IMG/VR virus record: IMGVR_UViG_3300009103_000026
Coordinates: 1 to 64,000 of that record
DNA length: 64,000 bases
Strand: one strand, 5' to 3'
Source of the DNA: a virus
This document shows, piece after piece, positions 21,127 to 59,236 of this stretch (positions within the stretch are counted from its first letter, which is position 1; every line of letters begins with the position of its first letter). Position numbers and translations under genes: made by a program. The notes beneath the pieces were generated by a model, which saw nothing but the letters and a program-made list of their open reading frames with translations, had not been told where the DNA came from and did not search any database.

Positions 21127-23028
21127 TTATTCAACGCATCTTTGATACGTAAATGATACGTTCCTATTGTACTTACCTGTCTTAGGGTCCCAAGATTCGC
21201 TATCGGCATTTTTAAATACTTTATTGCCATTAGCAAGTAATTCAAAATAAAATATATTTATTAAGTTGCTAACTTGTGGCTTGGGATTATTATAGAAAAG
21301 ATGTGTTCCTACACCTCCATTATAAACATCTCCAGAGCCATATGTATAATCTCTATGATATCTAGGTCCGCCAGTAAGATTTCCGGTAGCTGATGTTAAG
21401 GCACCGCTTTCGTATGGATAGTCTATACCAACCTTATCTCCTTCAGCATTTATGAGATACGCCCACTGAGCGTCCAAAGAAAGAGCTGTCCCTTCCCTGC
21501 TTGCGGCACTGTCTAAGAAAGCATTTCCTGTGGAGGGGCCCATCATGGCCTCCACGTTGATTTCTCTAGTTGAGCTTGTAACTGTTCCTATGGCTTGTAA
21601 AACTGGGCCAGTTCGCCTCCCCAGTACCTGTATTTCTGCAAATACGTCTGTTGGATGGTTATCATTTATACTAATAGTTTCTGAAAGAGCACCTGAAATA
21701 TGGTTTGAGGGCCTATCATCATATGCGTAGCTATATGTTATTGTTCCAGCACCCGGCTCATGGTTTATGCTAGTAGATGTTGCAATGGGATTAAGGGGTA
21801 AGACACCAGAAATAATGGTACTTGCAGGTTTTCCAGCAACAAGCCGAGCCCTTTCCAACATCCTGTTCTGTACGACATTGAAATATCCAGAAGCTGAGGC
21901 ATATTTAGTTTCAGTTATTTTATAATCCCTGTCAGGATCATTCACAAGCCCCAGACATTGTTTGTTCCCAGTGAGAGAGCCATATTCTCTTGTTTCATAT
22001 CCTTGGACTGTACCATCTATTTTTATACTAGTTAATCCATCTGTAGCACTAGTATCTGATGACACGGTCCAAGTTTCTGTGGCGTTGCCCGGAATTCCAA
22101 CTCCAGTATTAAAGACAACCCAGCCTTCGGTTACGGAATAGCCTCCTCCAAGCTCATCCAAAGCAACAGACCTAGTATGATTATAGAAATCAAAGCCAGT
22201 ACCACATAAATTAAGTACTCCTGACTGTCCAACGTCAGCATTTCCAGTACCTAGTAGAGGTAGGACATAGTCCCTTGCTTGTTGCCAAGCGGGTTTGACC
22301 AATCCGTTAGGGCCATATTCTCTTTTTCCATTTGCCGAAACAGTATGGGTAATGGTTATTGCATACGGGGGTCGATCTATATTTCCAGATATTCCTCCGG
22401 CCTGTAGAACGTCTTCGCTGAGAGCTAAGTCATAATAAGATGTATCTTCATTTATTTCATAATCCCAGCTTTCACTAGCATCAGACACAAACGGAGACTG
22501 AGTGCTATCAATCAAAGCTCCAGAGAACGTTCTTCCAGAAGGAAGCATTGAGTCTGGGTCAATTCCACTTCCCAGTGCCCCGCTAGTATTGTCAATAAGA
22601 CCGGTTACATTTTCTCTCTGGGGAGAGACATCATATTCCAAGGATATAGAATACGGCCCCTGTTGATACCAATTTTGTTCATGTTCGTCAACACCAAATG
22701 AGTTAATGCGAGGATAGCATCTGAAAGAGTCAAATGTTCCGTCTTTTCCACTAGTTGAAATTGTAAATAGCTTGCCTTCTTCTTTGAAGGCTTCTCTAAG
22801 TTGCTCTTGTAAGGTAACAACGCCAGAAAAACTTCCAAAAGCTTTGTCGGATGCAGCAGGATACGGACCGGGAGACAGGCCGGGAATAAGCGTTCCTGCT
22901 AGAGTAAAGGAGTGTACGGTTCCTATGATTGTTCCGTCTCCAGCTTTTGTAAATTCTTTTTCTAAGCTGAATTTTGGAACTGGTGAAAATTCATAATCAC
23001 CATATTTCATAATAGTAGTATAAGCCAT
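21127..23028 (-). CDS. Tail structural protein, likely distal tail/tail-tip
   Basis: Encodes 633 residues. The start has Tyr-Gly-Asp-Tyr-Glu-Phe-Ser-Pro-Val-Pro and Ser-Leu-Glu-Lys-Glu-Phe, followed by repeated beta strands such as Ile-Gly-Thr-Val-His-Ser-Phe-Thr-Leu-Ala-Gly-Thr-Leu. These look like the beta-sandwich of distal tail proteins. The C-terminal end Arg-Asn-Val-Ser-Phe-Thr-Tyr-Gln-Arg-Cys is also strand-like. No enzyme motif is seen. Its ATG overlaps the stop of the tape measure gene in TAATG, so the two are translationally coupled. The place directly after the tape measure is where distal tail proteins sit in siphoviruses; the specific call is inference. Confidence 0.65.
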   Translation of the reverse strand: MAYTTIMKYGDYEFSPVPKFSLEKEFTKAGDGTIIGTVHSFTLAGTLIPGLSPGPYPAASDKAFGSFSGVVTLQEQLREAFKEEGKLFTISTSGKDGTFDSFRCYPRINSFGVDEHEQNWYQQGPYSISLEYDVSPQRENVTGLIDNTSGALGSGIDPDSMLPSGRTFSGALIDSTQSPFVSDASESWDYEINEDTSYYDLALSEDVLQAGGISGNIDRPPYAITITHTVSANGKREYGPNGLVKPAWQQARDYVLPLLGTGNADVGQSGVLNLCGTGFDFYNHTRSVALDELGGGYSVTEGWVVFNTGVGIPGNATETWTVSSDTSATDGLTSIKIDGTVQGYETREYGSLTGNKQCLGLVNDPDRDYKITETKYASASGYFNVVQNRMLERARLVAGKPASTIISGVLPLNPIATSTSINHEPGAGTITYSYAYDDRPSNHISGALSETISINDNHPTDVFAEIQVLGRRTGPVLQAIGTVTSSTREINVEAMMGPSTGNAFLDSAASREGTALSLDAQWAYLINAEGDKVGIDYPYESGALTSATGNLTGGPRYHRDYTYGSGDVYNGGVGTHLFYNNPKPQVSNLINIFYFELLANGNKVFKNADSESWDPKTGKYNRNVSFTYQRCVE

Positions 23029-29000: not shown

Positions 29001-30740
29001 TCTTTGAGCTTGCTTCTTTTGCTCAAACTGAGCAAGCTTAGTTTGGACAGCTTGCAGTCTACTGGTGTCAGTAGCTAATTGATCTAATGCTTTTTTGTTA
29101 TCATTAAGAGCATTAATAACAGGATTTAATTCTTCTATTTGTATAGTCGTTATTTCATCTTCAGTTAATTGTCCTGAAGCTATCTGACTTTCTAGGTCTC
29201 TCCTTCGTCCTTCAAGGTTTTGTATTTGTTGGGCTATGACTAGAGGGTTTGATGCGGCGGGGCCCTGTAGTCCGGTCTTCCTTTCCATCCCCTGCGTAAA
29301 AGCTGATGTCATTTCACTTAATGACATATCTTCAAATCTACCTACTGCCTTAGCTATAGAAATATTTGTATTTTGCTGTATTTTGGCACCCTTGTCATAT
29401 AATTTTCCAACTTTTTGATGTATCTGAGCAGTTTTATTCAGAACGTCAATAAGATTTTTTCTTCCGGCAGCTATAGCATTCCATGCAGCTAACGCTGGAG
29501 CAAGGGCATTTTCAGTTGTGTTTCCTATAATTTGTCCTATCTTCTCTGGGTCTTGGGCGATTTGTCCAGCCGTAAGACCTTGACGAGTTCCTTCTCCAAG
29601 TACCTTTTGAAGAGACTGCTCCAAGGCTCCCTGCATTTCTTTCGGAAGGAAGTCTAATGCTCCCCCTCCTTTAAATGCATTTCTAATTGCTTGCGCCCTG
29701 TCCTCAGCATTTAAGCTGGCCAAGGTTTGAACGAATGTAGGAAGAATAGTTTCAAGCTTCTTACTAACTTTGATACCCGTATCCATCATGCCCGCCGCAG
29801 GCCCCCCTCCCATCATTCCTGTTGTTTGGGCTACGGCAGAGGCAATCTCCCCCGGAGTGCTATTTCTAATATCTTTTAATATTTTAACATTTTCTTGTGC
29901 GGCAGCAGGACCCTGTACTTTTGACATGCCACTCAAGGAAGCAAATAGACCCAGAATTGATTCCTTGGCCCCTTTAGCATCTTCACCAGCCCTCTCTATT
30001 GCTCCGGCCATATCAGCCATAGCCATATTCAAAAGGTTCATTTTTGCTATAGCTTTAGATGTTGCCTGATTAGCTTCTCTCGTTTCTGTTGCTTGTTCAA
30101 AAAGTATCTTAGCTCTTTCTTGAGCCTGAGCTATTTCAAATTGCCGTATCTCGTTTAATGATTTACCTTCTGCCTTCATCCTTAGCATGATTCTTATGGT
30201 TTCCTGATCAGTTGAGTTGAGCGCCCTCAACATCTTTATCTGCCCTGCCGTAAGCTTGCTGGAGTCTGCTGTTGCAATCCCCATCTCCTTCATGGTATTT
30301 CCCCCCACCACAGCAGAATGAAATGCCTTCTCTGCATTTGCTTGGTATTCTTTCGCTGCCTCAGCGCCCTTTCTTGCAATTTCCGCACGACCTCCTTTTG
30401 CCGCCTCCTGAAGACCCGCCTCCCCCTTAAACATGCCAGTAATCATCGCCATGAAAGGCCCACCGGCCCCAACAGCAGCTTGACTCATTAACGCGCCCTG
30501 ATCCAATCCCTGCCGACCAAAAGCTCCTAAGGTTCCTCCTTGTGGGCCGGTCGATCTGCCGGACCCGAAGAGCCCACTAGTACCACCCAACAAGCCCCTT
30601 CCCGCAGTTATACGACCAAAGGCTTCAAACATATCACCAATCGCCGCACCCGTTGCGGCACCAAACACTGCTACTTGAGTAGCCGAATTATTTGACAAAG
30701 TATTAGCGTAATCTTCTCCTGCCTTTAAAGCCGTTCCCAA
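23028..30740 (-). CDS. Tape measure protein, C-terminal part in a second frame
   Basis: Encodes 2,570 residues from a TTG at 30740. There is no ATG or ribosome binding site there, and the same frame is open upstream to 30830, just after a TAG at 30831-30833. Joined to the 978-residue ORF it would continue one tape measure protein (about 3,574 residues). Content: Ala/Gly-rich helical segments, long Lys/Gln/Ala coiled-coil runs, a near-tandem duplication at 28104-28343, and three copies of the tape-measure motif Asp-Thr-Val-Pro-Ala-x-Leu-Thr-Pro-Gly-Glu-Phe-Val (near 28400-28480, 27780-27850 and 23470-23540). It ends with a basic tail. The role is setting tail length and, at the end, DNA passage into the host. 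A separate gene is less likely than a broken or recoded single gene. Confidence 0.8.
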   Translation of the reverse strand: MGTALKAGEDYANTLSNNSATQVAVFGAATGAAIGDMFEAFGRITAGRGLLGGTSGLFGSGRSTGPQGGTLGAFGRQGLDQGALMSQAAVGAGGPFMAMITGMFKGEAGLQEAAKGGRAEIARKGAEAAKEYQANAEKAFHSAVVGGNTMKEMGIATADSSKLTAGQIKMLRALNSTDQETIRIMLRMKAEGKSLNEIRQFEIAQAQERAKILFEQATETREANQATSKAIAKMNLLNMAMADMAGAIERAGEDAKGAKESILGLFASLSGMSKVQGPAAAQENVKILKDIRNSTPGEIASAVAQTTGMMGGGPAAGMMDTGIKVSKKLETILPTFVQTLASLNAEDRAQAIRNAFKGGGALDFLPKEMQGALEQSLQKVLGEGTRQGLTAGQIAQDPEKIGQIIGNTTENALAPALAAWNAIAAGRKNLIDVLNKTAQIHQKVGKLYDKGAKIQQNTNISIAKAVGRFEDMSLSEMTSAFTQGMERKTGLQGPAASNPLVIAQQIQNLEGRRRDLESQIASGQLTEDEITTIQIEELNPVINALNDNKKALDQLATDTSRLQAVQTKLAQFEQKKQAQRGILERLATAGPEELQKISEEINAGLAAQATGRISASGGRARQQLAGLTSLNQLAGGGTGGGRDDFFRLLGRGGGNVASRLGGAMPGVLGGAFAGKGGSAVEQGLIGEMKRLGDIQKLATDMQIEIMETGMDELVFQARTAFNTMVSDVQNMADKVAFEFQTTGVTTGMARGGVVPGVGNRDTVPASLTPGEFVIKKSSVNKVGTDALHAINAQGFADGGGVKKNLWDPLKVILGAGGSTKRMPSGKQQWDEDIERWKQLGSGAKKNVGDPLMTILRAGSSTKRMPSGKQQWDEDIARWKGIGRGIGKGAHEVGRTAVGFDLMLQDFLGIHGSRSKAAGFGAKTPKPTVGPPRLGGQVTQELLDSLTDKEKEALGVPFAAGGTAKGTDTVPAMLTPGEFVINKNAASKNRGLLHKINSGHKMALGGPVQYFAAGGNVTRPTGAFNAEEKKKQKEIDAERARLKNEERAGGYGDTPAILSIEKSKKKTKEVLLMWEELKKKRENPVMIPSLTRTPAHPGGKFGGRFSGGFDPTTGTADPATLASYDAASQKYKERGEKIEKEIARQNKRIKDQEDKILDLRSQGALQSSGISPSAMSNLSKVAGTVDDKGKLIKNDPALIALYDYFKFQGNITPLLPTFAPKGKSSKGSSSANVALEKQVKGDLQALKGKNLTKGDASFKAWIKGKKYGRHTIQVPVLNRFTASGDAEMHKEQGEAGYFSPSAPWAKSFQSFVAQHKSNPPPEMVKTFIQEGLIPAQEAMDEEGKKANAALVGKELERMIIGHRSVSPHVMSILYTSYAKNLKEDIRQKHEANVAAQSNQDQVEQQLWHDVQARQDRKNEFADKLFKSGHRQFFKQAEKTSPGLAPGTTKITPEKYWEIYPPLIKDDTGAWVAHPRWKEQEPTVLNAKKALSKEAFFGLKPTPVKGRLTAADMGTPMAMTTAKLTGILGGGYLPPWLHNWFVGAGTLHPGAVQLVDPANPRKGSSHPAGLSILSRFIGAVKSAGEGKYEKDLMSMGKAEAREADILGGAPDQVEAALQQEQKAAAESFGAVVRRRVIASNPKLAAKEKRKEKYRAQNAEKLKQKLYKRFLSTPGASGKIDGPEFEAWMKQRQSPQQAVGGEALTAPGVPKDYAGISEVETIYKMNQFLATPRGRKLAKDKGIMGWYSYPPPVQPSSGTTGETKLAPLEDKTKMDFAKAYLRVARAKQKGLDIDPYSILPRSTRESQASDMTGRRKALGKEGLAFSKIAKANLSSYVYAKATSFNTGPLVRSRQQAENQIGEAPKSAARANREAAMEAGSMIDPQRVSGILAAFFRGKYGAGEAIDRLIGLSKGVGGAGAGDWLRTSQGQLPDLGSPNLWEKDLVSSVVQGINEPADSEIQAMEQKIDAARVGEVSLQGMDAIQKFMLEAWYAGKNLEAQMQSQGALKVAWQQLIASDRHIWERKGRRDTSPGSGHPGADRTNVDVRRGLEFMGEQNALWSWPSTRGMGGIGDDVGQPSWFVNVGQNDLALEKLKGGGDPAFAAEISDEVREMRLARLRAAWQKFFPLFFSTDGSGVGASTLTTPAWDALELAGGSDSGILAWGAGLGDKASVALEGQKEWESFNYGGTFDFNQALKIPVKDQAFQTGHPDNPPANQETKGQAALDAVVSGARFRDSTFNDELYGDWEGLRDRFPEIWKQAAQDTKLRSDYVSGHRQRMIETWMERMDELNKGFKPGYDSLGAETGALATLRRLALGDDWKSIEELYSEDVLQGKTGTQLDKDAGDRFGRAMKEDAFFKFFLRPTAEGMAKKRALVSGGGISSTPQGGSGNYFAEGGWVGSSSSKGTTDTIPAMLTAGEYVVNRQAAQQNRGLLESINNGDSRFRAKGVTRRGARQGLQTGGGAGGTSIEAANIIKGAMTTFGSWVQQLKDWNPPPIYHEHGSIQMTGKVDVAVSVTGGTEFAKLMEGSIKDYVNEVIEAEIGKKMNSVTGETRDSMEKGGGILKRLKARRRG
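28104..28343 (-). repeat. Direct duplication inside the tape measure gene
   Basis: Two copies of about 115 nt (28104-28218 and 28229-28343), spaced 125 nt apart, both encode a Ser-Thr-Lys-Arg-Met-Pro-Ser-Gly-Lys-Gln-Gln-Trp-Asp-Glu-Asp-Ile unit followed by Arg-Trp-Lys. DNA identity is high but not perfect, so this is an older tandem duplication. It changes tape measure length by about 41 residues. Confidence 0.75.
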
Positions 30741-30814
30741 GGAATCTTGAAATCTATGTAGCGCAACAGTATTACCTTCTGCTATTTGGTTCTGGAGTTC
30801 GCCAAAAGAATCCC

Positions 30815-33751
30815 TTACTTGGTTGAGGCCCTATCCAATTTCTCCAAGGATTCAGCAGTCTCTAACTCTCCCAACTTCTTAAAGTATGTTGTTGCGGCAA
30901 CAAGACCCCCTATTAAAAGACCACCCTTTAGGCCAAGTCCCATCATGCCTGCCATAGCACCAGCCATTATGCCTGAGCCAGCAGCAGCACCCCCAGCACG
31001 GGTTTGCTTACTGAACCTATCTTTGTCCAAGGCTTGCGATATCATTGGTGCTATCATCATCGCCATAAACATGCCGCCCATGCCGCCCCCAGCGCCGAAC
31101 ATACCCTGAAGCTTCTTTGCAAAACCTCGAAGTCCCGTTACGGCCATTCCCAATCCCCGACCCAACAGAGCTATTCCTCTGCCAGCCAGCTTCGTGGCAC
31201 CGCCAGCCGTGTTCATGGAGGCGGTAACCGACTTAACCGCTGCGTTCTGAATACCGCTCCAGTGTGAGGCATTCTGCGTTCTGGTGCCAAGTGTGTTCAG
31301 CTCCCCATTCAAACGTTTGATGTTCTTGGTGGTCGTCTGCCTTAGCCTGTTTGTTTTTTCCGATGAGTCTTTGAGAACCCTTGTGTCGACTGGCATCACG
31401 TCGGACCGCCGGGCCCCTCCTAGCATCCGATTCGCAGCGTCCATACTCATTGGCTTGCCCGAGAGGTTGCTACCGCTGGTTGTTCCTCGCACACCGGGCA
31501 CAATTCCTCCGCCGCTACGGTTCCGAGCAATCACAGCCTCTCTGTTGTCTGGTAACTGATTCACCCACGACGGTGTGCTGCCGCGAGGCGATCCGGGGAT
31601 AGGGCCCGACTGCCGAGCAAATCCAGTACCCATGCCGAAGGACCCGCTGCCCTGCCCGACACCGAATCGAAGCGAATCGACAGGCACGGCGGGCGGGAGC
31701 ACTGCTCCTCCAACCCCAGACGCCTGACCGGGCTGGATTCCCGGCACGGGCCTCTTTCCCTTCGCTCCTGCTGCCACCGGAAGCATCCCCCCGGCACCGC
31801 CCCCCCTTGCCTGCAAAGCGAGAATAAGACGCTCTATGGAGGCTACCAACGTTTTCGTCGAGGATTCAATTGCCACGGTATTAGCGCCTGTTGCCACGGT
31901 ATTAGAGCCTAGTGCCGTGTGAACGAACCGATTCGCCTTGAGCAGGTTGTGATTTGAGGCCCGCATAATAACGATTTCCGCCGAGTTGAGTTTTAGTGCC
32001 GCACCTAAAGCCTGCATACTCCCCGTATTAGCCACTATCGACTTCTGCAAAATCCCCGCTATCTTGACTAGAGCTTTCATGGGTGCAGCTTCTGCGGCTC
32101 CGGTTCCGGTACTAATTACCCCACCCCTGACGCCTGCCAGCCCTCTGCCCGCCGCTGCCGCACCGGTCCCGCCTGCTATCTTTTGTGTGATCGCTCCCCC
32201 CTGACCCGCAGTCCCTTCTCCCGCCACCGACTTTAACCCTCCAAAGAAACCCCCTCCAAACTGTTTTAGCATCATGATACCTTTAACAGCCATTAAACTT
32301 GTAAGCATTGGAAGAAAATCTTTCATGGCATCTGCAACTTTTATGAAAGCACTAGCCAGCTTAAGTACCATAGAAGCCATATTTTGGAAAGTTCCTGTTT
32401 TCGTCATCTCTCTCATCATCAATGTGAATTCTTCACGCACCTTCATCAACTGAACAGCAAGAGTCTTTTGTGCTTGCTCAGCGTCTTTAGTTAGAGATGC
32501 AGATCCTTTTATAGCCGCTTGGCGAGCCTTTTCAGCCGTACCAAACTGCTTAATAGCTGGAATTAATTTACCAACCTGCCTAAACCCACCGAGTTCTTCA
32601 ACAATTTTAGCAAATTCACCAGACCTAGTTGGAATTTGTTTTAATCCTGCCGACAGCCGTCTGAACGCTTCATAGGTACCTACAAAATTTCCTTGTAAGT
32701 CCAAAAGTTCAACGCCATACTCTCTTAAGAAATTAACAGTCTGACCACGCTGAATACGAGTAAAAATAGTTCTCAAGCCAGTAGCAATACTATCAGCACT
32801 TTCTCTAGTCGTTGCTCTAACAGAAGTAAAGATTGCGGCAAGTTCTTGCAACTTACCTATGGGGGTTCCTATCCCCTCGCTAGCAGCAGCAAAGACACCA
32901 CCAGCACGACGTATAACAGAAATTATATCATCAGCTTCAACTGCAAATTTACCAGCAATTGCATTTATTGAGCCTAAGGTTGCTTCAAGCTGATCTGCTT
33001 GAATATCAAATTGACGCATGGCAGCAATAGCACCCTCTGCCGTTTTCTTAATATCAGTGAAAGTTGGTGCTAGGGTAGTTTTTGCTAAAGCCTCTAAAGC
33101 TACTTTGGTATCTCTTGCGCTCAGACCTGATTGCTTTAAGATAAGAGACATCTCAACCAGATCTTTAGACGCCACGCCCAACTTTACAGAAACACGATCT
33201 ATTTCATTTGATAATTTACTCATGCCAGCAACGGTGGAATTAGACACCTGTGCTATTCTCATCATCTGTCTCTCAAAAGAAACAGCCTCTTGCACAGCCT
33301 CACTTATTGCCCGAATAAATCCAAAAACAACTGTTGTTGCAATGGTGAATCCAGCAAATCTACGTAACGCTAGGCCGGAAACCCTACCAAATTCATGCAT
33401 AGAGCTAGTTGCCATTTTCGTCTGAGCGGCAGTTTTCATGGCGGACCCTCCAACTCCCGCCATTCCCGCAGCAGCCGCCGCCGACGTTTTACTTGCCGCA
33501 GACATAGACCCGCTAAGCGCAGCGGTAGAAGAAGTTAGTTTTTGAGTTCCTCCACTAGCTCCACTGGCACTAGCATTAAGTTTTTGTATGCTAGTAGTTA
33601 GATTATTGACTTGCGCCTGAGCGTTTCTGTCGACCCTTACTCGCACATTAGCCTGCAACCCACTTTGCAGCTGCTTCTGGATGCCTGCTATAACAGGCCT
33701 TATATTTGCAGGTCCAACCAAATTTAGTTGGGCGGTAAGTTGAAATGCCAT
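30815..33751 (-). CDS. Tape measure protein, N-terminal part (TP901 family)
   Basis: Encodes 978 residues. Residues 110-400 form the TP901-type tape measure core: a hydrophobic helix with Phe-Ala-Gly-Phe-Thr-Ile-Ala-Thr-Thr-Val-Val-Phe, then Ser-Phe-Glu-Arg-Gln-Met-Met-Arg-Ile-Ala-Gln-Val-Ser, Leu-Ile-Leu-Lys-Gln-Ser-Gly-Leu-Ser and Arg-Thr-Ile-Phe-Thr-Arg-Ile-Gln-Arg-Gly. A second hydrophobic stretch with Gly-Met-Gly-Gly-Met-Phe-Met-Ala-Met-Met is near 890-905. A GC-rich, Gly/Pro-rich part lies between about 510 and 890. The stop TAA at 30815-30817 cuts a helix that resumes smoothly in the next frame. Helix-rich proteins of this family extend through the tail lumen. The start is ATG in the usual gene order after the tail assembly genes. 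Confidence 0.85.
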   Translation of the reverse strand: MAFQLTAQLNLVGPANIRPVIAGIQKQLQSGLQANVRVRVDRNAQAQVNNLTTSIQKLNASASGASGGTQKLTSSTAALSGSMSAASKTSAAAAAGMAGVGGSAMKTAAQTKMATSSMHEFGRVSGLALRRFAGFTIATTVVFGFIRAISEAVQEAVSFERQMMRIAQVSNSTVAGMSKLSNEIDRVSVKLGVASKDLVEMSLILKQSGLSARDTKVALEALAKTTLAPTFTDIKKTAEGAIAAMRQFDIQADQLEATLGSINAIAGKFAVEADDIISVIRRAGGVFAAASEGIGTPIGKLQELAAIFTSVRATTRESADSIATGLRTIFTRIQRGQTVNFLREYGVELLDLQGNFVGTYEAFRRLSAGLKQIPTRSGEFAKIVEELGGFRQVGKLIPAIKQFGTAEKARQAAIKGSASLTKDAEQAQKTLAVQLMKVREEFTLMMREMTKTGTFQNMASMVLKLASAFIKVADAMKDFLPMLTSLMAVKGIMMLKQFGGGFFGGLKSVAGEGTAGQGGAITQKIAGGTGAAAAGRGLAGVRGGVISTGTGAAEAAPMKALVKIAGILQKSIVANTGSMQALGAALKLNSAEIVIMRASNHNLLKANRFVHTALGSNTVATGANTVAIESSTKTLVASIERLILALQARGGGAGGMLPVAAGAKGKRPVPGIQPGQASGVGGAVLPPAVPVDSLRFGVGQGSGSFGMGTGFARQSGPIPGSPRGSTPSWVNQLPDNREAVIARNRSGGGIVPGVRGTTSGSNLSGKPMSMDAANRMLGGARRSDVMPVDTRVLKDSSEKTNRLRQTTTKNIKRLNGELNTLGTRTQNASHWSGIQNAAVKSVTASMNTAGGATKLAGRGIALLGRGLGMAVTGLRGFAKKLQGMFGAGGGMGGMFMAMMIAPMISQALDKDRFSKQTRAGGAAAGSGIMAGAMAGMMGLGLKGGLLIGGLVAATTYFKKLGELETAESLEKLDRASTK

Positions 33752-33823: not shown

Positions 33824-34708
33824 CTATTCTTCAGAAGCCTCTTTCTTTTCAGACTTAGGCTTCCTACCTCGCTTAGGTTTAGGTTTTTCTTCTTTCTTAG
33901 CTAAGGCCTTTTCAGCCTTACTCAAAACAGGATTTCCGTCATCGTCCAAAAATGGCTTAGCATCAAAAAGATAATTACCATCTTCATCTAACAAATTTCC
34001 TTTGTTATCAATTCTATGGCCATCGTCGTTTACTAAAAAGCCATCTTTATCAATTTTCTTTCCATCTCTGCTTATTAAATTTCCGTCTTCGTCAACTAAT
34101 TGCAAATCATCATTAAGAAACCCATATTCCAATAAAAACTTATTTTCTGTAAGATTTTGTTCAAAATTGTTGTCTAATCCATACATCATATTTGCCAAAG
34201 TTTTTGCTGATTCCACAGCAACCGGTTTATTGGCATTGGTCAAATAATCAGCTAAGCTTTCAAACACCTGCTCCCCATTATCATACACCGGACAGGCAGA
34301 TACTAAATAATTAAATTTCGCATTGTCTGCTTGCCCCTCGGCAGTATTATTATCCATACTTGTCCTATCAGAGATTAATGCAGTTAATTCATCTCTAAGG
34401 TCCTTCATCTCTAAGGCTTTTTTCTTAGCTTGATTCAATTTTATTCCACCTTTACCAATTTCTTTTTCTCTTTCTGTCAATTCCCCTTGTATGCGATTAA
34501 ACTCAGTTTGCTTATCGTCGTCCCACATGCCTTGTTTTCTCATATGGTCATCAAGCTTTACTCGAAGCAAAGCCCCAGATTCTAGGGCATCTCTAAAAGC
34601 CCTATTATATTCCTTTTGTGAATTATTAAGCTGTTGAACAGTAGGCTGTTCTACATTGACAGTTCTAACCTTGCCATCAACAGTAATAGTAAAATGTCGT
34701 TTAGTCAT
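33824..34708 (-). CDS. Tail assembly protein with DxDG repeats, putative chaperone
   Basis: Encodes 294 residues from the ATG at 34708, which has GAGGAG upstream; the upstream ATG at 34723 lies over that ribosome binding site. The first 150 residues are alpha-helical with charged heptads and fit a tail assembly chaperone placed between tail tube and tape measure. From about residue 210 to 270 there is a run of Asp-x-Asp-Gly or Asp-Asp-Gly turns (about six) separated by 6-8 residues, reading like beta-roll or calcium-loop repeats. The end is basic (Lys-Pro-Lys-Arg-Gly-Arg-Lys-Pro-Lys). It overlaps the preceding gene by 8 nt. No slippery frameshift site was seen. The chaperone role is from gene order. 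Confidence 0.5.
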   Translation of the reverse strand: MTKRHFTITVDGKVRTVNVEQPTVQQLNNSQKEYNRAFRDALESGALLRVKLDDHMRKQGMWDDDKQTEFNRIQGELTEREKEIGKGGIKLNQAKKKALEMKDLRDELTALISDRTSMDNNTAEGQADNAKFNYLVSACPVYDNGEQVFESLADYLTNANKPVAVESAKTLANMMYGLDNNFEQNLTENKFLLEYGFLNDDLQLVDEDGNLISRDGKKIDKDGFLVNDDGHRIDNKGNLLDEDGNYLFDAKPFLDDDGNPVLSKAEKALAKKEEKPKPKRGRKPKSEKKEASEE

Positions 34709-35063
34709 GATCTTTCTCCTCATTGTCCTTTAATAGTTTAAAATCAATATGATACCGATTCCAAGTCATTGTATATTCAGATATTTCTTCCTGAGCTATA
34801 CGCAACTGGGTATTTCCATTATTGAGAACTTCCGTCCTAGCAGCTTCCCATAGATGCTTGAATTCCTCTTGTTCTGGTGTCAAGCCACCACTATTATTAT
34901 GACCCCATAGGTCCCCAAAGTATTCTTCAAAAACAGCCAAAGATCCAATCATTGTTGTTTTAAATTTTTTTTCAATATTTTTTATCAATCTATTCTTAGA
35001 ATTTTCATTATATTTTTCCTGATTATTTTTTTTTGCTAATTCTCCTAGTTTTGCTTTGTCCAT
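34701..35063 (-). CDS. Small protein of the tail assembly region
   Basis: Encodes 120 residues, hydrophilic and mostly helical. It begins with a Lys/Asn-rich helix; the middle has Phe-Gly-Asp-Leu-Trp-Gly-His-Asn and the end a Trp-Glu-Ala-Ala-Arg-Thr-Glu-Val segment followed by Trp-Asn-Arg-Tyr. No domain is recognised. Its stop overlaps the following DxDG-repeat gene by 8 nt, and the preceding 350-residue gene ends 13 nt before its start, so the three genes are a unit between tail tube and tape measure. That is the usual place for tail assembly chaperones (gpG/gpGT-like), but I see no classical slippery site joining this gene to its neighbour. Confidence 0.5.
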   Translation of the reverse strand: MDKAKLGELAKKNNQEKYNENSKNRLIKNIEKKFKTTMIGSLAVFEEYFGDLWGHNNSGGLTPEQEEFKHLWEAARTEVLNNGNTQLRIAQEEISEYTMTWNRYHIDFKLLKDNEEKDHD

Positions 35064-44783: not shown

Positions 44784-47732
44784 CTAATCTATTGTCCAAG
44801 GTAAAAACGAAGCATTATCAATCAACCATTGTTCGCCAGCTAAGCCCTCAATAGCACCCATGTCCCAGTCGTCAAGATTAAAGTTTGGTCGGGTAGTTCC
44901 GGTGCCACTATGACAATAAATAGAATTAATATCTATGTCTGGGAAAGCATGGAAACATCCTGATGACAAAACACGCGCCGTGCTATCTACAAAAGTTCCA
45001 CCCTGATTTGAGGCCCAGCTCTGACCACCTAGAAGAGGACCATTCTGCCCGCCCACAGAATTGGACCAGCGTAGGTTTTTGTCGTCCGGAGGTGGGTCTC
45101 CACTATAATTCCAGTTAAATCCAGCACCTACACAAGGAGAACCAGATTTTAATGTTAGTCCCCCTATAGAATGGTTTACGCCGGTCGGACATCCCGTAGT
45201 ATACCATATATTTGGCATATGGAATACTTCATACGGCCCCCGGTTATTGATTGCTTCGTTATGGGTGTCTCTATAGATTCCTGTCGCACAGTTATATCCC
45301 CACTCGCCAGACGGAACTATAGGTCTATCACAGCCCAAGGCAATATTTGAAACACAGGGTGAGGGGACCCCCGTATTGGGGTAACCGGCCTTGGTGCTAC
45401 ATCTCATAACATTAGACCCAGAAGGCCATCCCGATGGAAAAGCTTCTTCATAATAAATTCCAATGCCGCTGCCGCCGCCGCCAACAACATTATAAACAGT
45501 ATTATTCGCTGCGATACAGTCTTTCATCCCAATACCTATACCAGCCCCTCCTTCTACAGTAACTCCAGCAATTACGTTTCTCCATGCTCTACATTTCTCA
45601 AGGGCTACCGCATTTGCTGACGCAGTGTTTGAAACCACCCCAGTAATTATAGAATGATGTACAATTATCCCTAGGCCTGTTCCTTGGAACGCTTGGCTCT
45701 CAATAAGAGTCCTTCCTCCGCCAGCGCCAGTTGAAGTCAAAAGACACCTGTTAATGTGCAGGGGAGCTGGATTATTTCCATCTCCAGTCCATTTAATATT
45801 CTGGCTACTATTTGCCATATGCCCCGTAACGTTTTCTAACATCCAACCGATGGGCCAAGAACACTCGTCAGTCAAATTACCATTAAAAGTTGCTCCTGTA
45901 GTTATATCTCCGCTTTCCGCAACCCAAAAAGCATCCTCTCCACAACCAGTACCGGTAGGAGCATCGGCAAACCCCTGAAGACTACCTGCATTTAAATCAT
46001 AATAGTGCCAAACCTGATGTGCTCCATAGTCCGATTTTTTACATACATGATGTCTGTAGGAGCCATTTAAAGACCAGCCATACGCAACTCGCCTCGCCTC
46101 ACCATCAGCACCATATGTTGTTTGATTCGCTCCTCCTCGATGAACTGATTCGTTGGGCCCTGCCCCCTCTTCTTCAAGCATCCTCCCTGCTCGCGGAAAC
46201 CCAAGAACATTTTTAACTCGCCACGGCCCGCTAGGAACCTTGTTGCAATGAAAGGCCGTTGAAACGTTACGGGTGACACCGGGACTGGAACCAAAACCTG
46301 AATCTGTGTCTGCCGGAGGTGTAAAGCATTCTATGCCTGTTTGAGATATAAGCCCTTGAAGCATACTGGTTTTATATCGTTGCCCATCCCAAGTATCTGT
46401 CCTTCTGCCTGCCTCGGCAGGGCTAAGCACGTTGCCAGAGCAACCTACTCTCATATCTACACAAACACCCCCATACCCACTTTGCGCAGCTACATCAGCT
46501 GCCCACCAAGCCGCCGACTCAGCGGGCGCAGATGGGCCACCATCATTAAACCCCGATAGTTTTGGCTGCCAAGGGTGTGACTTTCCGACGCTTCCACCAG
46601 TTGGATTTACAGCTACCGTTGTTCCAATAGAAATGTCTGTTCCGGTAGCATATGACTGCCCGTCCGGTGACGAGAAAGCCACTGTGTCTGGGAATTGACC
46701 AGACCCAAGTTCCGTACCCAAGGCCCCAACCAACACACCCACAAGCGTCCTATTTTTACTGCCCGCATCATCTTCTATATCTATTCCTATAGCTAACGGA
46801 CTAAAGGTTGCATCCGTATCATCCAACTGCGAGTAATCTCTAACGCCAAACCCAATATCAGCAATAGTGCAGTTTTTCATTACTAAACACCCGGTACCCT
46901 TAGGAAGATGAACTCCTACCGCAGTAGATTCCTGCGCGGCTGAAGCCATGTCCTGCCCAAAGCAACTATAAAAAGCACAGTCCACAAATTCCATTTGGCC
47001 AGATTGAGCATAAATATTTGCAAGTACTGTCTTCGTTCCGTCATGATGACCTTTCCAGTTGCCAAATTCCATATGTTGAAACATTTGACCTATGCCAGAA
47101 GCACTCTGAGCCCCAAACATATACTCATCAATATCAAGATTAAGCGCAGTTCCGTTCGTACCAGTACTAAAGCTCCATCGACCATCAATTTTTCCATTGT
47201 ACATACCAAACGTACAACCCATTCTTACGTCTAGAATATAATGTTCAGCGTGCAAAAGAGTTCCTGTAGATGGTTTAATTGTAAACCTTCGTTCGTTGTC
47301 CTTATAATATCCAGAAGGACACGCATTTGAAACATCTCCCGGCGCCCCCCCACTCGCACCAACTATATAGAGGCCCTCTATATTTTTATTACTATATTCT
47401 CCAAAGTCCTGACCCCCATTAAAAACAATATCCGCCTCATCAAAATTTCCATGAGCGAATGCCGTTATTATATCCCCATCTTGATAGACATCCTCTTCAT
47501 CAAGCTCAGCTTCGAATAGACTAAAAAGTGAATAGGTCAATGGGGCGGGAGTGTCTAGTCTTTGGTCTATGTGTGCTGCCCACGGGCTGCCAGCGGACCC
47601 ATTATGGTTGCCGCTCCAAACATTAATTGTTCCTGAATATAATAGTTGCCGCCCGTCGCTGGTGGCGGGTGGCTGGTCATGACTCGCAAGTCGTGGTCCT
47701 AGGGGATGGGTTGGCTGTGATCTTAGCGCCAT
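44784..47732 (-). CDS. Right-handed beta-helix protein, tailspike-like
   Basis: Encodes 982 residues. From about residue 70 to 800 the sequence has short repeated turns with stacked hydrophobic and Gly/Asn residues (for example Cys-Thr-Ile-Ala-Asp-Ile-Gly-Phe-Gly-Val, Ala-Trp-Arg-Asn-Val-Ile-Ala-Gly-Val-Thr-Val and Met-Lys-Asp-Cys-Ile-Ala-Ala-Asn-Asn-Thr-Val-Tyr), typical of pectate-lyase-like parallel beta helices used by tailspikes to bind or cut polysaccharide. No catalytic acids can be named by eye. Its start shares one base with the gene before it (TAATG). It is the largest protein in the adhesin group and likely an exposed sugar-binding or depolymerising fibre. Where it sits on the virion is unknown. 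Confidence 0.65.
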   Translation of the reverse strand: MALRSQPTHPLGPRLASHDQPPATSDGRQLLYSGTINVWSGNHNGSAGSPWAAHIDQRLDTPAPLTYSLFSLFEAELDEEDVYQDGDIITAFAHGNFDEADIVFNGGQDFGEYSNKNIEGLYIVGASGGAPGDVSNACPSGYYKDNERRFTIKPSTGTLLHAEHYILDVRMGCTFGMYNGKIDGRWSFSTGTNGTALNLDIDEYMFGAQSASGIGQMFQHMEFGNWKGHHDGTKTVLANIYAQSGQMEFVDCAFYSCFGQDMASAAQESTAVGVHLPKGTGCLVMKNCTIADIGFGVRDYSQLDDTDATFSPLAIGIDIEDDAGSKNRTLVGVLVGALGTELGSGQFPDTVAFSSPDGQSYATGTDISIGTTVAVNPTGGSVGKSHPWQPKLSGFNDGGPSAPAESAAWWAADVAAQSGYGGVCVDMRVGCSGNVLSPAEAGRRTDTWDGQRYKTSMLQGLISQTGIECFTPPADTDSGFGSSPGVTRNVSTAFHCNKVPSGPWRVKNVLGFPRAGRMLEEEGAGPNESVHRGGANQTTYGADGEARRVAYGWSLNGSYRHHVCKKSDYGAHQVWHYYDLNAGSLQGFADAPTGTGCGEDAFWVAESGDITTGATFNGNLTDECSWPIGWMLENVTGHMANSSQNIKWTGDGNNPAPLHINRCLLTSTGAGGGRTLIESQAFQGTGLGIIVHHSIITGVVSNTASANAVALEKCRAWRNVIAGVTVEGGAGIGIGMKDCIAANNTVYNVVGGGGSGIGIYYEEAFPSGWPSGSNVMRCSTKAGYPNTGVPSPCVSNIALGCDRPIVPSGEWGYNCATGIYRDTHNEAINNRGPYEVFHMPNIWYTTGCPTGVNHSIGGLTLKSGSPCVGAGFNWNYSGDPPPDDKNLRWSNSVGGQNGPLLGGQSWASNQGGTFVDSTARVLSSGCFHAFPDIDINSIYCHSGTGTTRPNFNLDDWDMGAIEGLAGEQWLIDNASFLPWTID

Positions 47733-48082
47733 TATTCAAGTCCCTCCAACAATCCAGCGACTTCCTTATCCACGGCTATTTCATCTAGAGAATATATTGT
47801 ATCACTTTCAAACATAATGCTGGGAGTTCTTATATCAACCATATTATCTGTAAAAATATCCCAATAAGGAATAAACCACCTTCTTTTAGCTAAAATTTTA
47901 TTTCCCTCTCCATAAACTATTGAGGTTTTTCCTCTACGCACCTCATCATAACATTTTATAATTAGAAATGAACTCTTTTCTGTGTCTGAGAACACATGAT
48001 TATCACCGACTATGCTAACAATGTCTCCATCTTGATAGCTAGGGTTTGGTCCAGTTGATTTTACCTTAATTATAACCTGCAT
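47732..48082 (-). CDS. Small protein before the beta-helix gene
   Basis: Encodes 116 residues, beta-rich at first (Gln-Val-Ile-Ile-Lys-Val-Lys-Ser, then Gly-Asp-Ile-Val-Ser-Ile-Val-Gly-Asp) and helical at the end. The Trp-Phe-Ile-Pro-Tyr-Trp-Asp-Ile stretch is near residue 68. The stop overlaps the next gene's ATG in TAATG, so the two are translated together, and it may be a chaperone or adaptor for the beta-helix protein. I recognise no domain. Confidence 0.45.
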   Translation of the reverse strand: MQVIIKVKSTGPNPSYQDGDIVSIVGDNHVFSDTEKSSFLIIKCYDEVRRGKTSIVYGEGNKILAKRRWFIPYWDIFTDNMVDIRTPSIMFESDTIYSLDEIAVDKEVAGLLEGLE

Positions 48083-48085
48083 CCT

Positions 48086-48763
48086 TTATCTCCTAACTAA
48101 CCTAGAATACTTTTCCATCAGCTGCTTGATTGTATGCTTTCCAGAGAACCCAGCAAAGTGCAATATAAACTCCCCGGCCCTGTTTTTCCTAGGGCTGTAA
48201 AAAGCATTAAATTGATTATTATCTGGCTCTACATAAACACGATCCTCAAAATTCATAATATTGTTATGCCACATATAATTCATGGCACACTGCTCCCAAA
48301 ATTTAAGCTTTAAAAATTCCATCTTATTATATTTTTCTGGCCAGTCCCATATCTCTTGAAGTATATCCTTAGACCACTGAGTATTCTTCACAAAATAATT
48401 TCCGCAGCACAAAGAACTTTTTACAAATTTATATTCAACCAAACCGCCTCCCTGATTTGGAATTATCATATGGCAATTAGGCTTTATAAGGTCTTCAAGC
48501 CTGATTGTGTGGTCCATGATTAATGCGTCTATGTCACTCCAAAAAACCCAGTCAACGTCTGTAGTTTTCAACACCTCTTTTATCAATAAAATACTATGCC
48601 AACTTGGATGTCTGCCTAATCCTTCACCATATAAACCTTTTTTTGTGATTAACGAATATCCGTACCTATCACAATATTCCTGCTTATTTTCTTTTACAAT
48701 ATATGCCCAATCATCAAAATTAGAAGTGTATAATTGGACTACTGCTATTTTTGCCTCTGTCAT
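48086..48763 (-). CDS. Glycosyltransferase, GMA12/MNN10 (GT34)-like
   Basis: Encodes 225 residues. The GT-A core shows Trp-Val-Phe-Trp-Ser-Asp-Ile-Asp-Ala with acidic residues D77 and D79 as the metal/sugar-nucleotide DXD, preceded by Thr-Asp-Val-Asp. Later parts match the family: Lys-Asn-Thr-Gln-Trp-Ser-Lys-Asp-Ile-Leu, Phe-Trp-Glu-Gln-Cys-Ala-Met and a Phe-Asn-Ala-Phe-Tyr segment near the C terminus. Family members transfer a hexose from a nucleotide donor. It lies between the pyruvyltransferase and the beta-helix adhesin. A motif of the promoter class is at 48769-48778 but too close to the start to act in the usual way. Acceptor unknown. Confidence 0.75.
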   Translation of the reverse strand: MTEAKIAVVQLYTSNFDDWAYIVKENKQEYCDRYGYSLITKKGLYGEGLGRHPSWHSILLIKEVLKTTDVDWVFWSDIDALIMDHTIRLEDLIKPNCHMIIPNQGGGLVEYKFVKSSLCCGNYFVKNTQWSKDILQEIWDWPEKYNKMEFLKLKFWEQCAMNYMWHNNIMNFEDRVYVEPDNNQFNAFYSPRKNRAGEFILHFAGFSGKHTIKQLMEKYSRLVRR

Positions 48764-48768
48764 TATAT

Positions 48769-48778
48769 ATTATACACT
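48769..48778 (-). promoter_or_regulatory. Weak match to the candidate promoter motif (AGTGTATAAT)
   Basis: Minus-strand AGTGTATAAT matches the candidate consensus in nine positions but lies only 5 nt before the glycosyltransferase start. If it were a -10 box, the transcript would begin inside the coding sequence. It may be functional with an internal start, or may be chance similarity; I give it low weight. Confidence 0.2.
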
Positions 48779-48783
48779 ATTCC

Positions 48784-49500
48784 TTATAACTTGTCTTGCC
48801 ACGCACACCCAAGATCAGATAAATACTCGTCAAATATTGTTTTATTTTTATGATAATAGACAGGAAGAAGGGTTACTTTTGCCTTCATAGCCATGCCACA
48901 AATAGCGAAATGGAGCCTATCTGTCATAATAGATTCAAATTGTGCTGCATATTCCCAATAATCCTCAGGGGTATGGCAAAAAGAAGCCGGGTCTTTCCTC
49001 CTCTCTCTTGGAATATAAATAAACACGCTTTCGTTGGTTCTTCTAAGAAATGTTTCGTCCCCACCCTTCTTGCAGTTCGTCTCTGGAAAATCAAAACCCA
49101 AGGCTAGGTCTGGAATTATTTCCCCCTTTCCAACTATATCTCTACTGACAGACTCCCTAAAAAAGAGCCTCTCAAAAGGGAGATCTTCTTCTTTAAAGAC
49201 AGACTGAGGTAGCATCCAGCAAGGTATCCCAGATTCATATGCCTTTCTTCTTATGGCTGCACATTTGGGGTATCCAACATTGCCCCCGGCGAAAAGTAGC
49301 AATTTATCACATCTAGGAACAGGGTCTTCAGCCAAGGGATTTATTGTGAAATGATCTACGTCAAATTCGTTGCAAAGTTGTCTTGTGGCTAAATAAAGCA
49401 GGTCGTCACCAACGTTTCCAAAACCGTCTACGATTCCAACACGCAGCCCCTTAAGCTCTCCAAACATGGGTTCAAAGTTAGACAATTCTAACAATCTCAT
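48784..49500 (-). CDS. Polysaccharide pyruvyltransferase-like protein
   Basis: Encodes 238 residues of the CsaB/pyruvyltransferase type. The N-terminal Rossmann-like part has Gly-Asn-Val-Gly-Asp-Asp-Leu-Leu-Tyr-Leu-Ala (28-38) and Leu-Leu-Phe-Ala-Gly-Gly-Asn-Val-Gly-Tyr (68-77), the nucleophile/donor loops of this family. The C-terminal half keeps Thr-Asp-Arg-Leu-His-Phe-Ala-Ile-Cys-Gly-Met-Ala-Met-Lys (about 192-205), the family's hallmark. Such enzymes add a pyruvate ketal to a sugar, giving a charged group. The gene overlaps the sulfotransferase-like gene by 4 nt (ATGA), indicating coupled synthesis. It is shorter than many bacterial CsaB proteins, but the two signature blocks are present. 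The exact acceptor is unknown. Confidence 0.75.
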   Translation of the reverse strand: MRLLELSNFEPMFGELKGLRVGIVDGFGNVGDDLLYLATRQLCNEFDVDHFTINPLAEDPVPRCDKLLLFAGGNVGYPKCAAIRRKAYESGIPCWMLPQSVFKEEDLPFERLFFRESVSRDIVGKGEIIPDLALGFDFPETNCKKGGDETFLRRTNESVFIYIPRERRKDPASFCHTPEDYWEYAAQFESIMTDRLHFAICGMAMKAKVTLLPVYYHKNKTIFDEYLSDLGCAWQDKL

Positions 49501-50087
49501 TTTTCATACTCCCCTTTGACAAAATCCTCATGATGAAGATAATATATTAAATCTTTTTGTTGCTGAGATAACTTAAAAGAAGAAAAGTCCACACCGTAGT
49601 TTTTACTGTCTGCCAATTTCCATGACTCGTTAAGGTGTGGGAAGGGACATTCTTCCTTAAATAGATCAAATCTTTTTAATTCTTGTTCAATATTTTCAAC
49701 TTTAATTAATTCATCATATTCATATAATTTGGTGACAGGAAATTTAATTAATTGCTTGGAATGAACCATCAACCACTTATTGAAAGATACATTCTCGCCC
49801 TTAGATATGGTAAACTTCCATTGACTAATTGCTCTATCATAAGGATTTCTTATTGGCAATAGCTTCTTAAAATTAATAGCCCGCTTAGGATACCAGTTTG
49901 TATGACCTAAAGACGGTTCATTCTCTGGATTTAGTACATCATTAGGTAGGTAGGGGACCGGACCCTGTACGAATTTAAATCTCTCTTTCCCAAAAACCCT
50001 GTAGCTACAAAGATACTTATTCAATGACGTACTGTAATTTTTAAGAGGCTGCCAAACAATTAGCTCTCTTTCTTTATTAATCAGCAT
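49497..50087 (-). CDS. Sulfotransferase-like protein
   Basis: Encodes 196 residues from the ATG at 50087, which has GGAGGA six bases upstream; a start at 50135 would overlap the previous gene more and lacks a binding site. The PAPS-binding loop candidate is Lys-Asn-Tyr-Ser-Thr-Ser-Leu at 16-22, and the 3'-phosphate motif is Arg-Asn-Pro-Tyr-Asp-Arg-Ala-Ile-Ser at 80-88. Both fit carbohydrate sulfotransferases, which move sulfate from PAPS to a sugar. The size is small for the family but contains both key sites. It overlaps the pyruvyltransferase-like gene by 4 nt. Sulfation of a phage or host glycan is the inference. Confidence 0.7.
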   Translation of the reverse strand: MLINKERELIVWQPLKNYSTSLNKYLCSYRVFGKERFKFVQGPVPYLPNDVLNPENEPSLGHTNWYPKRAINFKKLLPIRNPYDRAISQWKFTISKGENVSFNKWLMVHSKQLIKFPVTKLYEYDELIKVENIEQELKRFDLFKEECPFPHLNESWKLADSKNYGVDFSSFKLSQQQKDLIYYLHHEDFVKGEYEK

Positions 50088-50949
50088 TTTTCCTCCAAAT
50101 CGGCCTAAATCTTTCACGGCCATACTCATTTTCATTAGGCTCTAAATGCCGAAAGAACGAATAGTCTTTATCAACAAGTCTCTGAAGCAGTTCTAGTCTG
50201 TAGCTTGCTGGCCTTGACCCATTCGCATGTATAAAATAGCAGTCTTCTATCTTAGACCAAAAATCAAAGTCTATAAATTCTAAATTATATTTCCAGTTTA
50301 GTATATCAAACTCATTGTCTTCCAAGTTTATTAATAGATAGTTTTGATCAAAACACCATCTTTTAGGATACGGCAATTTTGGCTGATGGTATCTATGAGA
50401 AAGCTTTTTAGGTATAAGCATTACACCACCATTAGGCTGTATGCTTCTATTATTTTTTTGTAGATTTGGATATTGCTCTAGTATTTCTTTTCGTTCTCTT
50501 TTGATGCTTTCAAATATTAAATTATAAGACTGTTTAATAATGTCCCACTCATCGACAAACGATATCCTTTCCTTGCCGAGTGTTTTAAATACATCTGGGG
50601 TATTATCCTTAACTACAATATCACAGTCTAAGTATAGTGTATTTTCATACTTTTCTGTTACTTGTGATACCCTGTACTTATTTGACATGGGCCATTCGGG
50701 TGATTGGTCTCCGGACAACTCTATATAATCTGCCCCACATCTATCCGCATAATTTAAGATGTTTCTTCTGGTGACATTCAGTTGTTCCATAGCAATTTTA
50801 TTAGCTGGAATTGTACATATAGCTATGTCTGATTTTTGTCTTGGTAAATCGTCTTGGAATACTGTCGGTATAACTAAATCTGTGGGAAGAGGAGGAGGGG
50901 GATACCCTCCCCACTTAGACCACCCACCATCCTTTACATCATGTCTCAT
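50077..50949 (-). CDS. Glycosyltransferase with DXD motif
   Basis: Encodes 290 residues from the ATG at 50949, 2 nt after the fibre gene's stop; a longer ORF starting at 51033 would run into that gene. The GT-A core shows Tyr-Leu-Asp-Cys-Asp at 106-110 (D108, D110), preceded by Leu-Asn-Tyr-Ala-Asp-Arg-Cys-Gly-Ala and followed by Gly-Gly-Val-Met-Leu-Ile-Pro. The pattern resembles GT8 or related glycosyltransferases. It ends inside the sulfotransferase-like gene by 11 nt. It begins the glycan cassette, so the cassette is GT, sulfotransferase, pyruvyltransferase, GT. Donor and acceptor cannot be told. Confidence 0.65.
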   Translation of the reverse strand: MRHDVKDGGWSKWGGYPPPPLPTDLVIPTVFQDDLPRQKSDIAICTIPANKIAMEQLNVTRRNILNYADRCGADYIELSGDQSPEWPMSNKYRVSQVTEKYENTLYLDCDIVVKDNTPDVFKTLGKERISFVDEWDIIKQSYNLIFESIKRERKEILEQYPNLQKNNRSIQPNGGVMLIPKKLSHRYHQPKLPYPKRWCFDQNYLLINLEDNEFDILNWKYNLEFIDFDFWSKIEDCYFIHANGSRPASYRLELLQRLVDKDYSFFRHLEPNENEYGRERFRPIWRKNAD

Positions 50950-50953
50950 AATA

Positions 50954-53515: not shown

Positions 53516-53545
53516 GCCCACACTCTCCCTATTGATAAATTACAC

Positions 53546-53587
53546 AAAAAAAAGGGAGCGGCAACAGCAAGCTGCCGCCAACTCCCT
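53546..53587 (-). terminator. Rho-independent terminator after the major capsid gene
   Basis: On the minus strand a long stem (GGGAG...TGGCGGCAGC paired with GTTGCCGCTCCC, about 10 bp with a small mismatch) is followed by eight T residues. It starts about 20 nt after the capsid protein stop. Strong and well placed to end a capsid-rich transcript before the fibre gene. Confidence 0.8.
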
Positions 53588-53605
53588 TATTTTTAATACT
53601 GTAGA

Positions 53606-54610
53606 TTACAATGATCCAAGTATAACTCGTCGATTATCAAGAACTGCAAATCCTTGTTCTGCCCATCCATAAAGGCCAGCACGTTTTTGACGATGAAGAT
53701 TGTCGTCTTCAAAGACCTGAACTTGCTCACGCATCGGCATAACAAACGAATCTCGTCTACTGAGATCCAGACCCACAACACTTTCTACATCCGTTCCGGG
53801 CAGAGCACCGCTAAGTTCGGAACTATAGAACAGTTGATATTCTTGACCTTGTCCTAGTTCGTCTAGGTCGTGAAGATTGACGCTAAAGATTCGGTTAATA
53901 GCACCGTCTTCGGCCACGTAAATTTCTCTACGCGTAACTTCATCAACTTGGTCAACGCCCCAGTTGCGAATATCTTCCATGGCTTCTGGACTAACATATA
54001 GGTCAGTCAATCGACCACGGTTAAGGGAGGTTGAGTTACCGCCGCCATTACGACGCATAACGGTTTTCAGCAAGCTAACCAATCTCTTGGTAAACTGACC
54101 AGCATTCGCATCACTGTCATAAACAACAATGTTACGATCAACGCCAGCACTAAGGATAGTGTGCCAACCGTCGTCACTCAACTTCTTGGTAAATTGGGCT
54201 TCCATGACTTCCATGGCACGACCCACAACATCCCAGCGGGCGTCACGAGCATACTTCAGGAGCCAATCAATCGAGGCACCAATGTCATACGTCGGAACGA
54301 TTACGTAATCGCCTTCGACGTGTCTTTCCGGAATCCGGCCATGATTAGGAATCGTGTAAGCCACGAAGTCCCGTTCCGTTCCCGGAGCGATGAAATCTAG
54401 AGGAAATTCAGTAGAGGCACCCGGAGCCATTTGAATAGCTTCGAATATATTACCAAGAATATCTCCAGACAATAAACCTTGTCGCAAAGGAAGCTCAAGA
54501 GCTTTTGCAAGCTCAGCAGTTGCGGCCAGAGCCACTTCCTTTCGCGGTGAACCAGAGTCTTTAAGAAGCTGGTCCATTTCAGGCGTAGGAGTAAAAACTT
54601 TATCAGCCAT
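53606..54610 (-). CDS. Major capsid protein (HK97-type)
   Basis: Encodes 334 residues. It has a helical N terminus (Glu-Leu-Ala-Lys-Ala-Leu-Glu-Leu-Pro-Leu-Arg), an extended Glu-Arg-His-Val-Glu-Gly-Asp-Tyr-Val-Ile-Val-Pro-Thr-Tyr segment (about 92-110), a spine helix with Ala-Met-Glu-Val-Met-Glu-Ala-Gln-Phe, and a P-domain-like Leu-Tyr-Val-Ser-Pro-Glu-Ala-Met-Glu-Asp-Ile segment. The end reads Arg-Ala-Gly-Leu-Tyr-Gly-Trp-Ala-Glu-Gln-Gly-Phe-Ala-Val-Leu, like the last strand of many capsid proteins. It sits after protease, scaffold and decoration genes and before a strong terminator, as expected for the main capsid subunit. AAGGAAG lies before the ATG. Confidence 0.8.
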   Translation of the reverse strand: MADKVFTPTPEMDQLLKDSGSPRKEVALAATAELAKALELPLRQGLLSGDILGNIFEAIQMAPGASTEFPLDFIAPGTERDFVAYTIPNHGRIPERHVEGDYVIVPTYDIGASIDWLLKYARDARWDVVGRAMEVMEAQFTKKLSDDGWHTILSAGVDRNIVVYDSDANAGQFTKRLVSLLKTVMRRNGGGNSTSLNRGRLTDLYVSPEAMEDIRNWGVDQVDEVTRREIYVAEDGAINRIFSVNLHDLDELGQGQEYQLFYSSELSGALPGTDVESVVGLDLSRRDSFVMPMREQVQVFEDDNLHRQKRAGLYGWAEQGFAVLDNRRVILGSL

Positions 54611-54627
54611 TTTATTGCTTCCTTTCT

Positions 54628-55101
54628 TTATACTATGTTAACCCAGACTTTGACGTATCCGTCAGCGTCTTTCGTACTAAGAAATCTTCCAACCTGATCC
54701 GAAGTCGTGCCAGTGGTAAATTTACCATCTGTATCGAAATGTGCAACGTCTCCGGCCAAGATTGTAGACGAATCAACTTGATCAGTTACAACCCAACCCT
54801 GTCTCATCAACAATACCTTACCACCCAGCTGGACTTCGTCCTGATGCTGGTTAAGGTGCTGTCTGGTAAGATCAATATCAACTACATCATTTAGAAGCAA
54901 TCCAGCCGGTTCAGCTGTGTCGCCAGCTACAGACCCGCCGGGAACAGCTACAATAGCTTCCGCCTGATCCATACCTATGCCAGAGCCGCCGGACTGAGCC
55001 GAGCCGTTGCCATGAACAACGATGATTCCGCGTTCCATAGCCTCATTCCCAAAGAATGAGTTATCGGTAAGCGCTTCATATCGGTCACCTTTAAGAGCCA
55101 T
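54628..55101 (-). CDS. Head decoration protein-like
   Basis: Encodes 157 residues, beta-rich: Gly-Ile-Ile-Val-Val-His-Gly-Asn-Gly (25-33), Ala-Glu-Ala-Ile-Val-Ala-Val-Pro-Gly-Gly-Ser-Val (47-58), Val-Leu-Leu-Met-Arg-Gln-Gly-Trp-Val-Val (near 97) and Val-Gly-Arg-Phe-Leu-Ser-Thr-Lys-Asp-Ala-Asp-Gly. This resembles gpD/DUF2190-type decoration proteins that bind the capsid surface. It lies between the scaffold and the major capsid genes with 17 and 28 nt spacers, the usual place. No enzyme motif. The call is based on size, strands and gene order. Confidence 0.65.
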   Translation of the reverse strand: MALKGDRYEALTDNSFFGNEAMERGIIVVHGNGSAQSGGSGIGMDQAEAIVAVPGGSVAGDTAEPAGLLLNDVVDIDLTRQHLNQHQDEVQLGGKVLLMRQGWVVTDQVDSSTILAGDVAHFDTDGKFTTGTTSDQVGRFLSTKDADGYVKVWVNIV

Positions 55102-55129
55102 ATTATGTCTCCTTCACATATAAAAAAGT

Positions 55130-56680: not shown

Positions 56681-56727
56681 ATGATTTTTAGTGCCCTCAT
56701 ATATGTATTATACGCCTCACTCAAAAA

Positions 56728-56737
56728 AATATACACC
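56728..56737 (-). promoter_or_regulatory. Candidate promoter motif GGTGTATATT
   Basis: Minus-strand GGTGTATATT lies 47 nt before the protease start in an 84-nt spacer. It matches the 7205 element in all ten positions. A separate TATAAT box lies 17 nt further downstream, so either may be the -10 element, with the first then near a -35 position. It would start the head-gene transcript. Confidence 0.45.
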
Positions 56738-56764
56738 ATAAACTATAAAAATGGACGAATAATC

Positions 56765-57028: not shown

Positions 57029-57048
57029 AATATCCCCTCCAAAAAGAC

Positions 57049-59190: not shown

Positions 59191-59236
59191 GTTTTTTTCA
59201 TCCAATAGGTATTATAAATGTATTACAGTACATATT

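Follow-up and report, generated by a model that had tools for sequence, protein, structure and literature searches.

A tape measure gene divided by a single frame change in an uncultured phage contig, probably through a one-base sequencing or assembly error

The tape measure gene found in the window (the whole stretch of 64,000 nucleotides analysed here, taken from a 65,471-bp virus record of IMG/VR) was divided between two reading frames, and we consider, with a probability of roughly 0.8, that a one-off, one-base sequencing or assembly error divided a gene that is otherwise unbroken and about 3,575 codons long. According to this explanation, the deposited sequence would carry a single -1-type frame disruption within positions 30818-30830, the disruption would be a one-base error made during sequencing or assembly of the viral contig, and the tape measure protein of the actual phage would be produced in one piece, like that of its relatives. 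We infer that the indel is most likely located in the data rather than in the phage DNA.

The ORF upstream of the frame change scored above the curated cut-offs of TIGR01760 (71.7 bits, cut-off 28.8, E = 5.3e-20) and PF10145 (75.4 bits, cut-off 33.2, E = 7e-21), so that by domain content it is assigned to the TP901-type tape measure proteins, and its N-terminus was 43-54% identical over ~500 residues to the tape measure proteins of relatives. A single long ORF between the genes in the chaperone position and the next tail gene is the usual arrangement, not one needed for membership by the TP901-type domain, and in the window this ORF was broken. Despite the break, the gene order around the tape measure gene agreed with that of the relatives. 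The downstream part had a PHROG tape measure match close to its C-terminus and was followed by a tail gene homologous to the ORF that immediately follows the tape measure ORF of L276, L227, L223 and others (E down to 1e-99), which, judged by this homology, marks the true 3'-end of the tape measure gene. Both the length of the joined tape measure gene and its downstream neighbour fitted the relatives. The coordinates of these features are listed in Table 1.

Table 1. Features in and around the divided tape measure gene, with the evidence for each one.
Feature	Position in the window	Strand	Evidence
Tape measure gene, 5' part (978 codons, TP901-type domain)	33751-30815	minus	ATG at 33751, TAA at 30817-30815
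Tape measure gene, 3' part (-1 frame, 2,600 open codons)	30830-23028	minus	Open frame, profile of relatives and PHROG match
Stretch of 13 nt holding the frame change	30818-30830	minus	Flanking stops and codon-usage switch
TTG nominally opening the downstream ORF, in all likelihood not a real start	30738-30740	minus	Weak ribosome-binding-site match, homology upstream of it
Next tail gene (633 aa)	21127-23028	minus	Homologue of the ORF that follows the tape measure ORF of relatives
Two small genes in the tail assembly chaperone position	34701-35063 and 33824-34723	minus	Similar ORF pair in relatives

The two small genes in the chaperone position overlapped slightly, the second one having its own ATG with AAAGGA upstream, and the relatives retained two adjacent or overlapping ORFs at this place; no lambda-type frameshift therefore seems to be needed for the expression of this pair. 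The tape measure gene belonged to a row of giant ORFs on the minus strand (7843-33751), encoding 2,307, 2,111, 633 and ~3,575 aa. Elsewhere on the same strand, a GDP-mannose 4,6-dehydratase gene (62200-63300; PF16363, 6e-111), probably an auxiliary sugar-nucleotide gene, adjoined the packaging genes, and the portal gene (phrog_2739, 57049-59205) had a mechanically assigned TTG start with no visible ribosome-binding site.

The -1 frame was closed by a TAG at 30833-30831 and then remained open from 30830 to the stop at 23028, an open frame of 2,600 codons (2,570 when counted from the TTG at 30740) that far exceeds chance. The frame of the upstream ORF and the -1 frame consequently overlapped only along the 13 nt of the junction, which in the upstream frame were read within AGG GCC TCA ACC AAG TAA. 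The preliminary description of this DNA had given the TAA at 30815-30817, the TAG at 30831-30833, the 13-nt overlap between them and a 2,570-residue ORF starting at a TTG in the -1 frame, and all of these were reproduced. Its statement that the overlap lacks an X XXY YYZ slippery heptamer also held when the overlap was read in the upstream frame. Between the scoring windows that start at 30883 and 30823, codon-usage scores, trained on the other minus-strand genes of the window, changed abruptly from favouring the upstream frame to favouring the -1 frame. An extra base in the GGG at 30829-30831 had been suggested as the change that would restore the gene; such a base is possible within the overlap, and the GGG is just one of several positions compatible with it, the affected base not being fixed by the sequence. 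There was no long homopolymer at the junction, and the repeats near it were short, in two copies only and likely to be there by chance.

The relatives indicated that both frames encode one protein. When the two parts were read through, with an X at the junction, the product aligned in a single frame with the undivided ORFs of L280 (107 bits), L263 (94), L258 (92), L297 (89), L225 (68) and L223 (67); in the best of these alignments, TAESLEKLDR-X-LNQVRDSFGELQNQIAEGN of the window was matched to ITNALENIAKSSGDLDTAFKQLESSFTSSN of L280. A profile built from the unbroken ORFs of eight relatives, with no window sequence included, matched the read-through product with 65.6 bits over residues 863-1488 and without a gap at the junction; the downstream part alone gave 52.5 bits, starting from residue 6, and the upstream part alone gave 1.3 bits. 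The members of the profile were chosen by their similarity to L280, which was itself found through a match to the window, so that their letters are independent of the window and their choice is not. The homology to the profile began ~25 codons upstream of the nominal TTG start. Because the profile crossed the junction without a gap and started before this TTG, the two frames encode parts of one protein, in agreement with the single product of ~3,574 residues that had been proposed previously. The profile was used at the junction because the region 30269-31724 was too divergent for the frame-switch test with the ORFs of relatives; wherever the relatives cover the window, this test found no other frame switch.

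The two ORFs could also be read as two distinct proteins, the first one, the tape measure protein, ending at 30815 and the second one beginning at a downstream start such as the TTG at 30740. Candidate starts are present (this TTG and an ATG at 30632), but neither had a convincing ribosome-binding site: the best match upstream of the TTG was the 3-nt AAG, compared with matches of 4-6 nt in 22 of the 34 listed genes. The homology to the single ORFs of relatives, which runs on from the first part before this TTG is reached, also speaks against two products, and no relatives with two proteins divided at this place were found. The TTG is thus most likely not a real start, and we regard the synthesis of two proteins as extremely unlikely.

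How the relatives were obtained is relevant to these comparisons. Searches with the whole upstream part, the downstream part, junction-flanking peptides and an exact 25-mer found no near-identical or close copy of the junction. Because direct searches with tape measure peptides found nothing, the terminase and major capsid genes were used first to reach relatives, and an alignment of the conserved domain was used next. Among the 49 records of the first set, 33 had a tape measure match and no stop fell within any of these matches. The survey of lengths comprised 120 tape measure ORFs, which were reduced to 86 dereplicated groups; 72 of the 86 had an open length of 1,300 aa or more and 63 one of 2,000 aa or more, the longest one reached 5,863 aa, and most of the shorter ones ran to a contig end. 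Comparison with homologous tape measure genes, proposed in the preliminary description as a check, therefore showed a predominance of unbroken single ORFs and no break common to any of them, and a search among the relatives for homologues formed by two proteins, each one with its own start, found none. The relatives, which are uncultured IMG/VR phages such as L280, L258, L223 and L246, resembled the window in the N-terminal domain, in a glycine-rich hydrophobic stretch before the junction, in the place of the gene between the chaperone-position genes and the conserved downstream tail gene and in being collinear across the junction; they differed in having one unbroken ORF, whereas that of the window contained a single frame change. 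The contigs closest by their capsid protein (L083 and L315, 100%; L084-L087, 86-88%) had no tape measure match.

A real frameshift mutation in the phage DNA, carried by a defective genome or by a minority variant present in the consensus, would leave the same sequence with an inactivated tape measure gene. The remainder of the contig looked accurate, because L315, a second contig of this phage, agreed with the window without a single mismatch along 11.4 kb (47381-58792) and the parts covered by relatives showed no further frame break, and the junction is not a long homopolymer; these observations favour a mutation and count against an error. The searches also found no other record of the phage across the junction, which counts against an error as well. 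The identity to L315 shows that the contig is good in general and is uninformative on the junction itself. Against a mutation, codon usage in the downstream frame was normal, with no sign of decay. Truncation of the tape measure protein should leave a tailed phage unable to form infectious virions, and genomes bearing a real break in this gene should therefore be rare. We consider that a real mutation is unlikely.

Breaks in other records support the explanation by a one-base error. The tape measure gene was also broken in L247, L299 and L303, at positions not shared with the window. Along 21.49 kb, L246 and L247 differed in nothing but two 1-base insertions in L247 (at 18745 and 21150), one of which, in an A-run, broke the tape measure gene of L247; the other one was found in a GATG/GATTG context, showing that indels of this kind also occur outside long runs. 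In L299 there were two frame changes close to A-runs, and in L303 the break was at an apparent short tandem duplication, the ORF that followed still matching tape measure proteins. These were 3 broken records among 90 tape measure ORFs (~700 kb, not dereplicated), and at this frequency a single break within 64 kb is unsurprising. L309 and L310, both from one bacterial assembly, contained further short ORFs with internal ends. A comparable case is BtI1 of Bacillus thuringiensis, a relative of phage 0305phi8-36, whose tape measure gene was split by one frameshift and was read as an error of the draft sequence since the relative has one gene (PMC2147016). Both cases present two ORFs opposite one gene, joined by a single frameshift; BtI1 belongs to a draft bacterial genome, whereas the window comes from an IMG/VR virus contig.

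The alternative left by the preliminary description was an unusual recoding site, at which a frame shift of -1 or +2 by the ribosome or the RNA polymerase, somewhere along the 13 nt, would yield the full protein. In favour of recoding, both frames are long, intact and overlapping, and the product would be collinear with those of relatives. However, the overlap has no slippery heptamer, and the RNA downstream of the junction was unremarkable as a stimulatory structure (z 0.45; 130 of 200 shuffled sequences folded at least as well, in pseudoknot-free folding), with no Rfam element matching at the junction. The relatives have single ORFs, and a conserved frame change was not found among them, the closest being just 51-54% identical in the N-terminal domain. 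There is also no obvious gain from recoding in a structural protein that is required in every virion. The programmed -1 frameshift of the lambda tail chaperones (G/GT) is likewise a -1-type change of frame among tail genes; it has a slippery site and is placed in genes that precede the tape measure gene, and neither applies to the window. Known conserved frameshifting in phage tails resides in chaperone genes, ahead of the tape measure gene (PMC5009743). With neither a heptamer nor a strong RNA structure, efficient recoding within the 13-nt overlap would be a decoding event undescribed for tape measure genes in the literature that we consulted, and it seems to us exceedingly improbable here; programmed recoding as a whole is highly unlikely. 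Between the two possibilities proposed at the beginning, the indel is strongly favoured, with no break shared by the relatives and one-off breaks in other records, and recoding was left unsupported.

Finally, tape measure genes are sometimes interrupted by insertions, as has been proposed for phage ICP1, whose gene is interrupted by an HNH endonuclease gene (PMC9040626), and an intron, an intein or a mobile endonuclease could in principle have split the gene of the window. The likeness to ICP1 ends at the divided gene: an insertion divides that of ICP1, whereas the two parts in the window overlap by 13 nt, which implies that there is no intervening sequence and nothing has been inserted. No Rfam intron matched, and no intein or endonuclease family was found in either the upstream or the downstream part. 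The overlap refutes an insertion, against which the absence of these signatures also counts and the probability of which is practically nil.

A one-base error thus being the probable cause, the split is most likely ordinary and not a new mode of decoding. L246 and L247 show that records of this collection can differ by single-base indels alone that break a giant gene, and a lone frame break in one contig of an uncultured virus is therefore weak evidence of recoding. Annotation should merge both ORFs into one tape measure gene, marked as having a probable frame error, instead of listing two proteins or a recoding site.
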